From positions 301,612-365,611 of the forward strand of contig KB722749.1 of assembly GCA_000349905.1 (NCBI GenBank): a DNA stretch of 64,000 nt, in the 5' to 3' direction. Positions 56,212-63,777 of this stretch are shown here, one piece after another; the stretch's first letter is position 1; each line of letters opens with the position of its first letter. A program made the position numbers and the translations under genes. Below the pieces are notes generated by a model. That model did not search any database. It was not told the DNA's origin and saw only the letters and a program-made list of their open reading frames with translations. The stretch is from Volvariella volvacea V23 (taxonomy: Eukaryota > Basidiomycota > Agaricomycetes > Agaricales > Pluteaceae).

Positions 56212-59200
56212 ATGAGTTGGTTCACCACCTTCTTCCCCGCTCCTAAGCCCCAGGACTCCCATCCTCAGCCTCCATCGAGGACTCTCAGTCGGGCTGGGAG
56301 TACAAGGGAGACCAGCGGGGCCCAAGTTCGTGCACCCACCGCGCAACCTCACGCGTCTACCTCTCAGCCGGTCGATATACCCAAAGCTGTTGAAGTTGTC
56401 GAACCAGAACCAACCCCAAGCACCATCCAGGACCCCAAAACAAAGGCGCTTCTCGACGATGGCGGTATCAATGCTTCGACAACTCCTATTCTCATAGAAC
56501 GAAAGGCCGCCCACTCGCCTGAAGATGGATCTGACGCATCAGACGCAGAATCCGAAGCGTCTACTGCACAAGGTGGTGGTGCCCACACAAACCCATTCGC
56601 CCGACCCACTCCTGACTTTCCCAAGCGAAGTGACTCTTCCGACTTGGATCCGTTCCTCCCTCCCGAGACCCCTTTGGACACAGAGCATCCTTTGGGTCCT
56701 GAGGATCCGCATTCGGATCCAGAGGAGATAGGGGACGAGGGTCAGATGGATTACTCCGCCCTACTTCGAGATGTTGCTTTGGGGAGAGAAGTTGTCGTAT
56801 CTCACCCTGGTTCCAGCCAATATACCCAAGGGATGAGTGTCTCCGCGTGCGGATTGGCTGCGCTGAACTGCGTACGCGTAATTCTTGGGAAGGAGCGAGA
56901 TTATGGAATTACCGGCGAAGACCTACTGCGCTGTATGATGCTTCCGGAAACAATCGAGGTAACGTCTCGTGTCTTTTCGCTCATCGTCATTAGGTTCAAT
57001 CATGCGTCTTTGTGTATAGGATATTGTTACAATCTGTCAAATGTGGACAAGCCAAGCCCACCTAGATGTGGATGATATTCACCAAATGCCATTATTCGAA
57101 GAATCCCTTAGTCTACACTTGACGCATTTCGGGCGTCCGAGTGCGCTAGAGTTTAGCAGATTACTCTCGTAGGTCACATCCTTCTTTACACCACTTGATT
57201 TGACCACCACTTCGCACAGGGACATGCAAGAAATCGCAAGTTCCGCAGCACTTGTCATCACCCGTCCTCCCGAAATCCTCGCCTGCTTCAAGATATCCGT
57301 CCTCGTCTGTGACGTATTCGTCACATTCGACTCCCATCCTCGACCGTTGCACCCCTATGGTGCTGGATTCGTGTTCAGCACGTCTTTGGAAGCAACTGCT
57401 CAGCGTCTTGCAGCCCTTCTTGGTGTTGACGGAGAGATACTGAATGACCCCGACATGGATTGGCAAGCCCAACTGCTCGGCAACTTTTCTGGTCACCTTT
57501 TCACCATCAGCGACGAGCATCGCATCAAGACTCTGGAAGCAGCGAAGGCTAAACTCCTCGAGATGGGCATATCAGCGCTCCAGTTAAAGACAGAAATTTC
57601 TGATCTCAAGACACAAATCAATGACCTGAACCAAACAAGAGCACATCTGGAGGGGCGAGTCGAGACGAGAGATCGTATGCTAGGCGATCTCCGCATTCGG
57701 CTTGACTCTGTTGCGGAAGAAAGGGACTACTTGAACAACATGATACAAAACGGATGGACAGATAATAACGGCGACAGAGAGAACCAAACAGCCATCATTG
57801 AATCTCTTCAGGCGGAAAATGAACGGCTGCAGAAGGATTTGGACAATAAGGCGCAGGAGGGCAACCGTCTCGAATCTGCCAAAGTCGCCTCTCTGCAGGA
57901 GGAGGTCGACCGTTTGAAGAGACAATTGCAAGAACAAAGCGAACAAATTCAGGATCAAGCTAAAGAGTACGAGATGCTGACATCCAAGTTGCAGGAGTTG
58001 GCAAGCCCTCCTCCCCAGCCAAACCTGTCCACTCCCATCGACTATCCACCACTTCCAGCACCAATGAATGTCGATCCACCGTTAGAACGTCAATCTCCCA
58101 CCTTGAATGACCACGACGAACAGCCGCCTGCTTCAAGTCAAAGCGTCAGACTTCCTCCTCCAGAACCCTCGCCACGCTCAGATGCCAAAGGAAAAGGTCG
58201 AGTGGTACCCGCACCAATCCCCAGATGGGGCAATTTCGATGCTCAAGAGTCGAATTCGATTCCTCCATTCACATCCAAGTCACTATATGCCACCAGACGT
58301 CCCGTCGACCCTCTTGCTCCATCGTTGACCGTAGACGACAGCGGATGGTGGAATTATTCACAGGCTGCCAATCCTCCCGCAGCAAGCGCCATCACGTACC
58401 CACCCCAACCATCATGGCCGGCTTCACCACCCAAACGAGAGTCACCGACGCCCACCCAGACTGATTGGTTCACCGGTATGGGCAAATCCGCCTCTCCTCC
58501 CGAATCTCGGACGGACAGCACGATTTCGAAATCGCCCCCCAAGGAAAGGAGGATTCGCGTAGAGCCCAAGCCAGCGCCGGCCCAGCTCCCCTCCCCTCCC
58601 GCCAGACGTGTCGTCAAATCAGCCTCGATTGCGCATTCAGCGCCTTCGTTCTCCATCTACCCCGACGCCTCAGAAGCCCCGAATCCGAGACGATTCCGTG
58701 TGGGCAAGGACTCGGACGGCGTTGGTGCACCCTCGGGCTCGGGCTCCTCGTCCAAGAAACGAGAGGGCGTTCATATCCCGCCAATGCCTCGTGCTATACC
58801 CCCTCTCCCCAAGTACCCACGCCCTTCACCTGCTATCCATCGGGCTGCCCGTTCTCCACCGCCCCGGGCGTTCACTTCTCCTGCGTTTGGCTTCCATTCC
58901 CCTACAGGGCATCAAGAGGCCGATCTCGACAGAGACCGAGCGCTCGCAGAACAGCTCCAGCGCCAGTGGAACGTCGAGGATCCCGAGACGGCGAGGGAGA
59001 TTGAACGTGTGCTGAGAGAGGACTTTGATGCGGACGAAGATGACTGGGTCGCGAGGCGGATGAGGAGGGGGAGAGAGCCCAGTCCGGTCAGGATACCGCA
59101 GTTCCCGGTGATTGAACAAGAGTTTACGCCGATTATACCCCCAGAACTATCCTACCAGGACTCGTTCGGAGGCGGCGCAGGCGCTGGGCCGAGTAACAAT

Positions 59201-60552
59201 AAGAGCGGCAAAGGAAGGGACAGTGACAGTGATCTGTGGAGGAGCCAAACGCTCCCGACGGGCAGTAGTAGTAAACGCGTGCCGGTACCTTCCAGTCAAT
59301 CGGTGGATCTGTGGGATCCCGATGCGCTTGCTAGCAGTGCTACTGAGCCATCTCAGCCGTCGTATACGAAAACCAGGAACCAGCGGCGAGTGTACGACTG
59401 GATGGAAAACCTAGCAAAGAACCAGGCGCGGGAACTCCAGAGCGTCGCCTCTGCCGAGCGCGGTCCTTCACCAGCTCCCGGCAGTAGCAGCCAACGGACA
59501 TGGGTGGCAGATGAAGAGGGGGAGAGCAGGGCGCTGGCCGAAAGCTTGAAACAGACGACCTTTGACTGTGGCGTCTGCTTGGAGACGCTACCGGTGGAGG
59601 ATGTGGCGTATATGGAGGGTTGTGATCATTCCTTCTGTCGGGATTGTATGAGGGGATATGTGACTAGTAAGATCAAGGAGAGGAGGTTTCCTATTTATTG
59701 TCCGGTCTGCGTCGCGGATAAAAATTCTTCTCAACATGGGGGTAGGCCGTCACTAACAGTTCATATCGGCATCACCTCATTTTTGTCTTTCTACTTTTGC
59801 AGTTGCCGACGATGTACTTGTTCAACTTGTTGGAATAGAAGAACAGGACTACGAGATCTACGTCGAACTGCAACTTGTTCAGTTCTCTGTGATCGTACAC
59901 TGTCGACGGTACGCCATAAACTCGTCCGTCCTCCTCAATTTCTCATTGGCTAATACCAACTCCCAGCTGTCGACGATCAGCGTTTGTAGATCGTGAAGAG
60001 CACCAGGAGGAGACGGTCATCTTCTGTCCTCTTCCGGATTGTAGCTACCGATGGTGCAGAGTGTGTGATCAAGAAGTCGCGCGCCATATCATGAGCACTG
60101 CTCATTCTTGTGATGGCTCGACAGAGCTGAATGCGTTGATGAGGGAGCAAGGGTGGAAGCGTTGTCCAGGCAAGTCCCACCCCTTATTCCACCCCTTGTC
60201 TGGTCTTCGAGGTGTATAGTGCCTTTGACTAATCCTGGCTTTATAGGATGTGATGTCCCCGTTCAGAAGAATGGTGGTTGTAACCATATGACGGTAAGAT
60301 CCGGTAACCTGAGTCTTTCCACCTGCATTCTCACTTTTTCATCTCTAGTGCGTCGCCCCTGGATGCAATGCGTGAGTCTAATTCTTGCTCTTATATACTG
60401 TCTGTGAGCTAAATCTGGTTATGAACGACAGTCACTTCTGCTATACCTGTGGTACATTGATCTGTCGGGGAGGAACACGGAGGGAAATCGACAACGCCCT
60501 TCAACGACATTATGCCCAGAACTGCACTCTTTTCCAAGTACCAGCAGAGTAA
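56212..60552 (+). CDS. RBR E3 ubiquitin ligase with N-terminal papain-like (putative deubiquitinase) domain
   Basis: Eight exons (56212-56958, 57020-57168, 57220-59741, 59803-59908, 59967-60169, 60247-60293, 60349-60371, 60432-60552) give 1,305 aa. Residues 1-~190 are disordered. Residues ~195-400 look like a papain-fold peptidase: Gln206 and Cys213 in QGMSVSACGLAALNCV, and Asp336/His338 in FVTFDSHPRPLHPYGAGF. A coiled coil spans ~408-560 (LQLKTEISDLKTQINDLNQT). A Pro/Ser-rich linker follows. RING1 is CGVCLETLPVEDVAYMEGCD with HSFCRDCM and CPVC; the IBR contains CPLPDCSYRWCRVCDQEV; RING2 is RCPGCDVPVQKNGGCNHMTC, holding the expected catalytic Cys, then HFCYTCGTLICRGG. RBR ligases pass ubiquitin through a RING2 thioester. 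Intron 5 is GC-AG (CCAG|GCAAGT). The fusion of a protease-like domain to an RBR module is the notable point. Confidence 0.9.
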
Positions 60553-60861: not shown

Positions 60862-63777
60862 CTACTCATAGGGTTCATTATCGTCACCCTCCTTATCCCT
60901 CCCCATATCAATCTTCCTCTTCTTCCACGGCAAGGCCTTACCATCGCCAAACCCAACGCCCGCCTTCTTCCTCAACTCCTCCACGTCCTGTTCACCCTCC
61001 TGAGCCCACTCCAAGACCAAGTGCCTCCCAAGCAAATGGGTATGACGCAGCGTAGCATAAGCATTCTCTGCTTCTTGTCTGGAAATGAACTCGAGAAACG
61101 CGAAACCCCTGGTACGGGAATCGAATTTTTTGGGCAGACGGACCGATTTGAGGTGGCCATGTGCACTGCAAACAAGATGAGATGAACATATGAAGCAAAA
61201 CGACAATTCCCAGAAGAAATGAAACATACCCAAATAGCTCACGAAGATCCTTCTTAGTAGCTTCAAACGGCACATTCTTCACAATCACCTTCGCACTCTT
61301 CGCGCCTCCACCACCAGCACCACCAGCACCTTTCTTATCCTCCTCTGTTCCTCTGCCAGCAAACTTGACGTGAAGCGCATGCCCGTCCAACACAAACCCT
61401 TGCATAGACTTCAAAGCCTTCTTCGCGCCCTCCACATCCTTGAACCCAACAAACCCATACCCCATGCTCAACCTCTGCCCATCCGGCCGTTTGGGATCAG
61501 GTTTCGTCTGTATCCGTGCAAACGAGAAAGAAGGCAACGCGTGGAATATTTGCGCAAACCGCTCTTGGCTTGTGGCAAACGAGAGGTTTTTGACGAATAG
61601 GGTTGTACCACCGTTGATGGAGGGTTCTTCTTCGTCAGCCGCGGTAGCACCTTCTCCGATCTCTTGTTCTAGGATTTTGATGGGTTTGGCGGAATATTGA
61701 ACGGGTGCGGAGGGTGTGGATGGTTTTGCTGAAGCGTCGCCTGAGAATATACCCAGGGGCCCTTTCTCGAGATAGATGATTGAATTCCCAAGTCGTCGAT
61801 AAGCAACGGCCTTGAACGCTTTGGCAGCCTCATCAGGTTTGTCGAATTCCACGACTGCAATTGTTCCAGCTGGTGGAACAAGAACCCTACTCAACTCCCC
61901 ATGCACGGCGAACATCTCTCGAATCTGGGCTGCAGTAGTTCCATAGGGTATATTCTTGACTAGGATTGTAGTATCTGAACGCGCCTTGGATGCGAAAGAT
62001 GACAATAGAACGCCTTCAGACTCCAGATACGCCTTTGTTTCTTGGATAATATGCGTCTCTGCTAGAGCCAACTTTACTGCTGCGCTGCTTCCAGATTCGG
62101 GGTTGAGAATGTCCGATTTAGGGATGTTCATACGATCCGCAATGGATGAAGCTACAGCATCCGCCTGCAATCGAGTGAGCCCAGAAATTGTATATTGGAT
62201 TTGCAACGACATACATTCATGTACAACATGCTCCAGTTGAATTCCTTAGTTGCCGCTGATTTCCTCTTGGCCTGTCTCTCCTCCTTCAAAGTCTTCTTCC
62301 GCCCTTCACCCTCCTCGACCTGGATATTACCCCGGCGGTCTACCGCCGCTATGATGTGCAGCAGGCGACCTTGAAAAGATTTCTTATCAAGGGCTTCGTA
62401 TGCAGCCACTGCATCGTCGGCCTTCGCGAATGTTACATAGGCAAGCCCTTTCGGCTGCTTGGTCGTATTATCCAAAGGTATATGCACCTATAGATGTAGA
62501 GGTGGTTAGCACATCACATTGGTCAATACAAGGAAGAAGAGCGAAAATTTCAGAAAATTTCTACTATCGATTATCCCAAGAGATCACCATGAATAATAGT
62601 CTGATGTCCCTATACTGGTTTTTGCATCTTGCAGGAGGGGATATGGCCACAGAATGAAAGCCTAGCTTACCTAGGAGAAAGGGGGATTAGTAAATGCATG
62701 CAAACTGGTCATGGGATGGTTGGGAGGCTCAGATAAATTTCTACTATCGATTTCCCAAGAACTCAGCATTCTCTAAGAGTCTGATGTCCCTATACAGGTT
62801 TGTCGTCCTCGCCCCCAGTCCGACCAATATACAAAAACGGGTTGGAGAGCGTCCTCACCTGAATTAATTCCCCATACGTCTGAAATAGCTCTGTCAGATC
62901 CTCCGTTGTGCAAGAGAACGCCAAGTTCCGTAGGAATAGCCTAGCTGTCTGTCGAATTGTCTCTTTCGTCGGGTCCTTGGGCGGTTCTGGTTCAGCGACT
63001 TCCTGAAGGAAAGGTGAGAAAGACGAGTAAGAACCCCGGATTCAGCTTACCTCTGCAGGCCTCTCATCTACATCCATCTCGTCATCTGACTGCTCAAAGG
63101 CTTTGTCCTCTGCTTCAACCTTACTTGACATGTGCCGTTTCATCCACTCCATATCTGAAAGCCCCTCCATAGAGGGTTCAGGTACTTCCTCGAGCGCTTG
63201 TTCAGGCTCAGGTGCTGCAGGTGGAGGTGGAGCATTGACGTGTTTAGCTTGGACGACAGGCTGGTCATCGTTCGCCCATGAGGGACCGTTCTTGTTACGA
63301 GGCTGCATGACTTCCATGAAGCGGTCGAGTTGAGATGCCTTCTTTGGTTTTTCGCTTTCCACTGCGTCGGCCTTTGCTTTTAGGGTGGACTTCTGCGTCA
63401 TCGACGCATCTTCATGCGGCGATGGACCCAACCGTGGTCGTTTATTCGGTCTGGGAGTTGGAGCATCCTTAGCACCCTACAACAATGGTTTCGACACACG
63501 ACTCACAAATCCAGAAACAAGGTCGACGTACATCTACGACAGTAACACTGATTCTTGCAGAATCAATGAAAGTCTTGTCGAAAAATTCCCGTGCAGCAGC
63601 AGCCTGCTGCTCCGTCTTGTATCCTACAAACCCAAATCGACGAGACGTCCCATCTCGTTTGAATGCAACTTTACAATCGGTTAGAACACCGCCCGGTCCG
63701 CGTTTCTGCTCGAAGTGTTCCCTCAGCCGTTCAGGAGTGACATACGGTGGTAGATTTTTGATGAGAAGCCTCGACAT
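60862..63777 (-). CDS. MRD1: MRD1/RBM19 multi-RRM pre-rRNA processing factor
   Basis: Six exons (63777-63532, 63476-63051, 63002-62859, 62487-62215, 62164-61230, 61165-60862) give 775 aa. Five RRMs are visible in order. RRM1: RLLIKNLPPYVTPERLREHF. RRM2: ARLFLRNLAFSCTTEDLTEL, then KGLAYVTFAKADDAVAAYEA. RRM3: TTILVKNIPYGTTAAQIREM. RRM4: TTLFVKNLSFATSQERFAQI, then MGYGFVGFKDVEGAKKAL. RRM5: AKVIVKNVPFEATKKDLREL, then RGFAFLEFISRQEAENAYAT. The linker block SMLYMNADAVASSIADRMNI is a hallmark of MRD1. The protein binds pre-rRNA and drives 18S processing and small-subunit assembly in the nucleolus. Intron 3 (62858-62488, 371 nt) is a tandem intron duplication, described separately. Confidence 0.94.
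62554..62623 (-). repeat. Intron repeat copy 2 (distal half of MRD1 intron 3)
   Basis: On the coding strand begins CCAGTATAGGGACATCAGAC and ends TCGATAGTAGAAATTTTCTG. Matches the other copy at 62733-62804 at both ends, with a diverged centre. Lies in the second of two back-to-back intron units. Confidence 0.85.
62733..62804 (-). repeat. Intron repeat copy 1 (proximal half of MRD1 intron 3)
   Basis: On the coding strand begins CCTGTATAGGGACATCAGAC and ends CGATAGTAGAAATTTATCTG. Lies in the first intron unit, at nearly the same distance from its donor (54 nt) and acceptor (62 nt) as copy 2 in its own unit (47 and 66 nt). Confidence 0.85.

Follow-up and report, generated by a model that had tools for sequence, protein, structure and literature searches.

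A predicted VTD deubiquitinase and RBR ubiquitin ligase on one polypeptide in Volvariella volvacea, with unfused and catalytically altered relatives in the same genome

Can a single fungal protein both attach ubiquitin and take it off again? The question is raised by a gene on the forward strand (56212..60552) of a 64,000-nucleotide stretch of the Volvariella volvacea V23 genome (contig KB722749.1, positions 301,612 to 365,611; hereafter the window), which a preliminary description made from the sequence had presented as a RING1-IBR-RING2 (RBR) ubiquitin ligase fused to a papain-like, possibly deubiquitinating, domain. That observation is correct, and both the architecture of the protein and its type of activity are already published: the fusion of a VTD deubiquitinase (DUB) to an RBR in mushroom-forming fungi was described by Erven et al. 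2022 (PMC9741609), who also named the agaricomycete VTD subfamily. According to the portions of that paper available to us, the fungal enzymes Si-VTD and Sl-VTD cleave only di-ubiquitin linked through lysine 6 (K6), fungal VTDs cut di-ubiquitin and are mostly inactive against mono-ubiquitin substrates, and eukaryotes otherwise have no truly K6-specific DUB, K6 chains being poorly understood. These portions contain neither a test nor a discussion of editing of one domain's products by the other, and the literature sources that we found, likewise available in part, hold no account of the ligase activity of VTD-RBR proteins, the chain type they make, their targets or editing.

Both halves belong to one gene, which runs on the + strand from an ATG at 56212 to a stop codon ending at 60552 and encodes 1305 amino acids in eight coding exons (56212-56958, 57020-57168, 57220-59741, 59803-59908, 59967-60169, 60247-60293, 60349-60371 and 60432-60552). 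The seven introns measure 51-77 bases each; six are GT-AG, while the fifth (60170-60246, within the RING2-coding part) is GC-AG, with its GC donor at 60170, in agreement with the spliced profile alignment. The same introns were obtained for the VTD and RBR parts by splice-aware alignment to a profile that included the window's own protein, and when this protein was excluded from the profile, the two VTD introns of the window agreed in profile position and phase with those of six paralogs (7/7). Since Asp336-x-His338 of the VTD, RING1, and the coiled coil and linker between them are all encoded by exon 3 within a single open frame, the two halves share one reading frame; this frame has 926 codons, whereas no frame exceeded 344 codons when the 4.35 kb region was randomized 500 times by a first-order Markov model. 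A gene model drawn from genomic DNA leaves room for two adjacent genes mistaken for one; we give such an artefact almost no credence, because the 926-codon frame spans the VTD through RING1 and the identical domain order is found in annotated proteins from many species. As the preliminary description had claimed, the spliced reading contains QGMSVSACGLAALNCV, from exon 1, and FVTFDSHPRP, from exon 3, the numbering of Cys213 and His338 is right for the spliced 1305-residue protein, and RING1, IBR and RING2 are complete in one protein once the short introns are removed; of its bounds (56800..60552), the end stands and the start has to be moved to the ATG at 56212.

Relatives were collected by three protein searches, which returned 20, 102 and 45 proteins, i.e., 158 distinct ones and 159 with that of the window (in the second and third searches, scoring was confined to the 7996 and 8000 candidates sharing most words). 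Of the 159 proteins, 123 carry VTD and RBR, 36 a VTD only and none an RBR only, counts that are not frequencies because many of the VTD-only proteins are short fragments and the queries were biased towards the VTD. A VTD is N-terminal of an RBR in 123/123 fused proteins. The closest relative is from Pluteus cervinus (59% over the VTD), and the named species among the matches are, we presume, all Agaricomycetes, many matches being nameless. Four Irpex rosettiformis proteins are among the matches listed and other species also give several, so the multiplication of the family is not unique to V. volvacea. Separately, RING, RBR or VTD units are repeated within the single annotated proteins P0014 (five RING1 motifs), P0016 and P0019 (extra VTD pieces beyond its RING2); these may be true repeats or merged gene models.

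The VTD covers residues ~178-400 (56743..57523, exons 1-3), as delimited from relatives, ortholog models and structure matches. Among the proteins covering each column, the predicted catalytic Cys213 (56848..56850) is Cys in 99/99, and in the predicted catalytic Asp336-x-His338 (57329..57337) Asp336 is Asp in 155/155 and His338 is His in 154/155, the sole exception (P0086) having Leu. The Gln of the motif was misplaced in the preliminary description, which had taken Gln206 (QGMS), a Gln in just 13/100 relatives; the conserved residue, probably the oxyanion Gln, is Gln203 (SQY; 56818..56820), found in 98/100. The protein thus has the Gln..Cys..Asp-x-His arrangement of VTDs, with a near-invariant triad. 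Moreover, the structure matches of the ortholog VTD models include the solved VTDs 8adc/8adb, at 14-16% identity, and MINDY is not among the entries listed for these models, an absence that carries no weight for or against a MINDY fold. Fold and motif support the tegument-type version of the papain-like DUB proposal, and the preliminary interpretation is supported in part. The K6-specific VTD subgroup is marked, in the portions of Erven et al. 2022 (PMC9741609) at hand, by a Pro-Phe loop and a helix alpha9 after the His; P273 (107/109), F275 (108/109) and W380 (153/153) are conserved in our relatives, and these residues, like helices 214-218 and 220-230 of the P0005 model, lie approximately at the distances seen in Wc-VTD1 of Waddlia chondrophila, as judged by spacing and not by residue-by-residue superposition.

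These residues also bear on whether the papain-like domain might be a dead module that only binds ubiquitin. Catalytically inactive VTDs are known in insects, and catalytic residues are missing from three of the V. volvacea paralogs (see below); against this, the window copy has the full triad, near-invariant among relatives, and two fungal VTDs are active enzymes (PMC9741609, as available in part), and we regard a dead module as very improbable.

A coiled coil follows the VTD (residues ~405-563, 57536..58012, bounds approximate and drawn by eye); it corresponds to a long helix after the VTD in both ortholog models, and the coil-type Pfam match (418-550) is weak and under its cut-off. Next comes a Pro/Ser-rich linker (58013..59560), probably disordered, as a large part of the corresponding stretch in the P0005 model has a predicted local distance difference test (pLDDT) below 50. 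In the RBR half, RING1 (residues 1082-1129, 59567..59710) lies just over the cut-off of Pfam PF00097 (22.5 vs. 21), with C1082 and C1085 conserved in 121/121; RING2 (residues 1241-1272, exons 5-8, 60163..60450) matches PF22191 (29.4 vs. 27); and the IBR region (exons 4-5, 59803..60162) was recognized from its zinc-ligand spacing by eye, no Pfam IBR model exceeding its cut-off there. Other RING/IBR Pfam models stay under their cut-offs in this protein. Together with the zinc ligands, the matches to PF00097 and PF22191 give the RING1-IBR-RING2 layout of an RBR ligase; ARIH1 matches across it (E 1.5e-6), and the RBR part of the P0005 model resembles RBR ligases in structure. The predicted catalytic Cys1259 of RING2 (CNHMTC; 60349..60351) is Cys in 83/87 relatives. 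The two active sites have thus been retained, as the counts for Cys213, Asp336, His338, Cys1259 and the RING1 Cys show.

How would the two halves work together? We lean towards linkage-selective editing, in which an N-terminal VTD DUB, connected with an RBR ligase through a coiled coil and a flexible linker, acts on the products of that ligase. Homology to Si-VTD and Sl-VTD, the fungal enzymes with tested activity, predicts that the VTD half would cleave K6-linked chains through Cys213, His338 and Asp336; the RBR half would receive ubiquitin from a ubiquitin-conjugating enzyme (E2) on RING1, form a thioester on Cys1259 and transfer the ubiquitin to a target, which the coiled coil might hold in place, both this ligase activity and the holding of targets or partners being putative. 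The DUB would then most likely strip K6 chains off the ligase itself and its targets, which would limit the net product of the ligase to mono-ubiquitin or non-K6 chains, the edit being made in cis or between coiled-coil partners.

Several points weigh against this proposal. The enzyme activities of the window protein are predictions by homology. Because the VTD has no PDB sequence match to a solved VTD and no Pfam family (PF04843, Herpes_teg_N, reaches E 0.24 in one of eight domains), its membership rests on fold, motif and Erven et al.; by E-value, Foldseek puts AvrPphB first for the VTD-only model. The P0005 model gives no placement of the VTD relative to the RBR (predicted template-modelling score, pTM, 0.48), the RING2 Cys is missing in 4/87 relatives (one through a gap), and the same genome holds six ligases without a VTD and several VTDs without a ligase.

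At least eight VTD loci were found in the genome, the window copy being C14. The triad is present in C14, C8, C22a, C12a and C24. In spliced profile readings, C3 (974395-975156) and C22b (C22:484634-485375) have no Cys and no complete Asp-x-His, C3 keeping the Asp and not the His, and both retain the two introns at conserved places; C12b (C12:701706-702117) is a VTD fragment without Asp-x-His. These dead copies are absent from the 159-protein conservation counts. C3 and C22b group together (99/92), although the placement of C22b is unsure because of its very long branch. The RBR of this family occurs at ten loci (C14, C8, C24, C12 and six at C28), all with the RING2 Cys in spliced readings (10/10). 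C14 and C8 are fused; the VTDs of C8 and C24 are letter-identical to stretches of P0003 and P0018 of V. volvacea WC 439, and P0003 carries both domains. At C24, 3.2 kb separate the VTD from an RBR on the same strand, and their fusion is doubtful because stops and another open frame intervene and the annotated P0018 has no RBR. At C12 (696450-700111), they stand head to head, the RBR on the - strand and the VTD on the + strand, an arrangement that an inversion within a fused gene could have produced. C22a and C3 continue into long open frames, with no RBR in the 4.4 to 11 kb scanned downstream; C22b, too, is a VTD gene near which no ligase was found. Finally, C28 (201007-212865) holds the six tandem ligase genes, each with an in-frame Met 60-196 residues ahead of RING1; no VTD was found ahead of the first of them and none is listed anywhere on C28. 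The six form one clade (100/99), which adjoins C8 and a Pluteus copy (87/85, a branch that is not firm).

As unfused copies coexist with fused ones, VTD and RBR need not act in cis; judging from the unfused paralogs, the two can probably do without a covalent link. It is possible, if rather unlikely, that both enzymes are active on different things, the VTD bringing the protein to K6-marked targets or clearing the K6 chains of another ligase while the RBR adds a different signal, i.e., chain exchange instead of self-editing. The VTD genes at C22 and C3 with no RBR found nearby, the divergent neighbours at C12 and the RBR-only array at C28 fit such an exchange, as does the activity of fungal VTDs on di-ubiquitin and mostly not on mono-ubiquitin substrates (PMC9741609, in its available portions); the fused form is nevertheless common (123/159 relatives, a count biased by fragments and query choice). 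Self-editing, our preferred reading, must also be set beside a narrower role, in which the DUB would do no more than shield the ligase from modifying itself with K6 chains and from the turnover that follows. RBR ligases commonly auto-ubiquitinate, but the six VTD-free ligases at C28 would, if expressed, have their RING2 Cys in the absence of a DUB, and we hold shielding alone to be unlikely.

Among known systems, A20-type ubiquitin-editing enzymes likewise combine DUB and ligase in one polypeptide, though with an OTU DUB and zinc fingers in place of VTD and RBR. The herpesvirus tegument DUB (M48, 2j7q) is viral and has no RBR. By their descriptions in the available parts of PMC9741609, the agaricomycete VTD-RBR proteins share organism class, fusion and active-site motif with ours; Wc-VTD1 and the Simkania SnVTD are K6-specific but bacterial, with no RBR mentioned; the viral and transposon VTD type prefers K48/K63/K11 and has a ubiquitin-contacting beta-hairpin that is absent from Wc-VTD1; and YopT/AvrPphB-type proteases have their active site arranged in the canonical papain manner and act on targets other than ubiquitin. 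Next to the gene, open frames on the - strand (60862-62245) contain RRM-like stretches, which we take to resemble MRD1.

The multi-copy, partly dead and partly unfused state of the family is less expected than the fusion itself: Erven et al. 2022, as far as available, report that most genomes encode just one such protein and that the active site is conserved in the fungal and protist subfamily, whereas V. volvacea has several, some unfused and some dead. Tentatively, the published one-gene design may have been duplicated and dismantled in this species, in which case the set, if expressed, would form a ligase-DUB network whose members tune one another, perhaps by way of coiled coils that they share: besides the fused editors there would be ligases on their own, and dead VTDs serving as K6-chain readers or decoys. 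The remaining interest thus lies in these unfused and dead members and in the putative editing. A K6-directed eraser beside a ligase would offer a direct handle on the role of K6 chains in fungi, and the unfused paralogs allow asking whether eraser and writer need one polypeptide.
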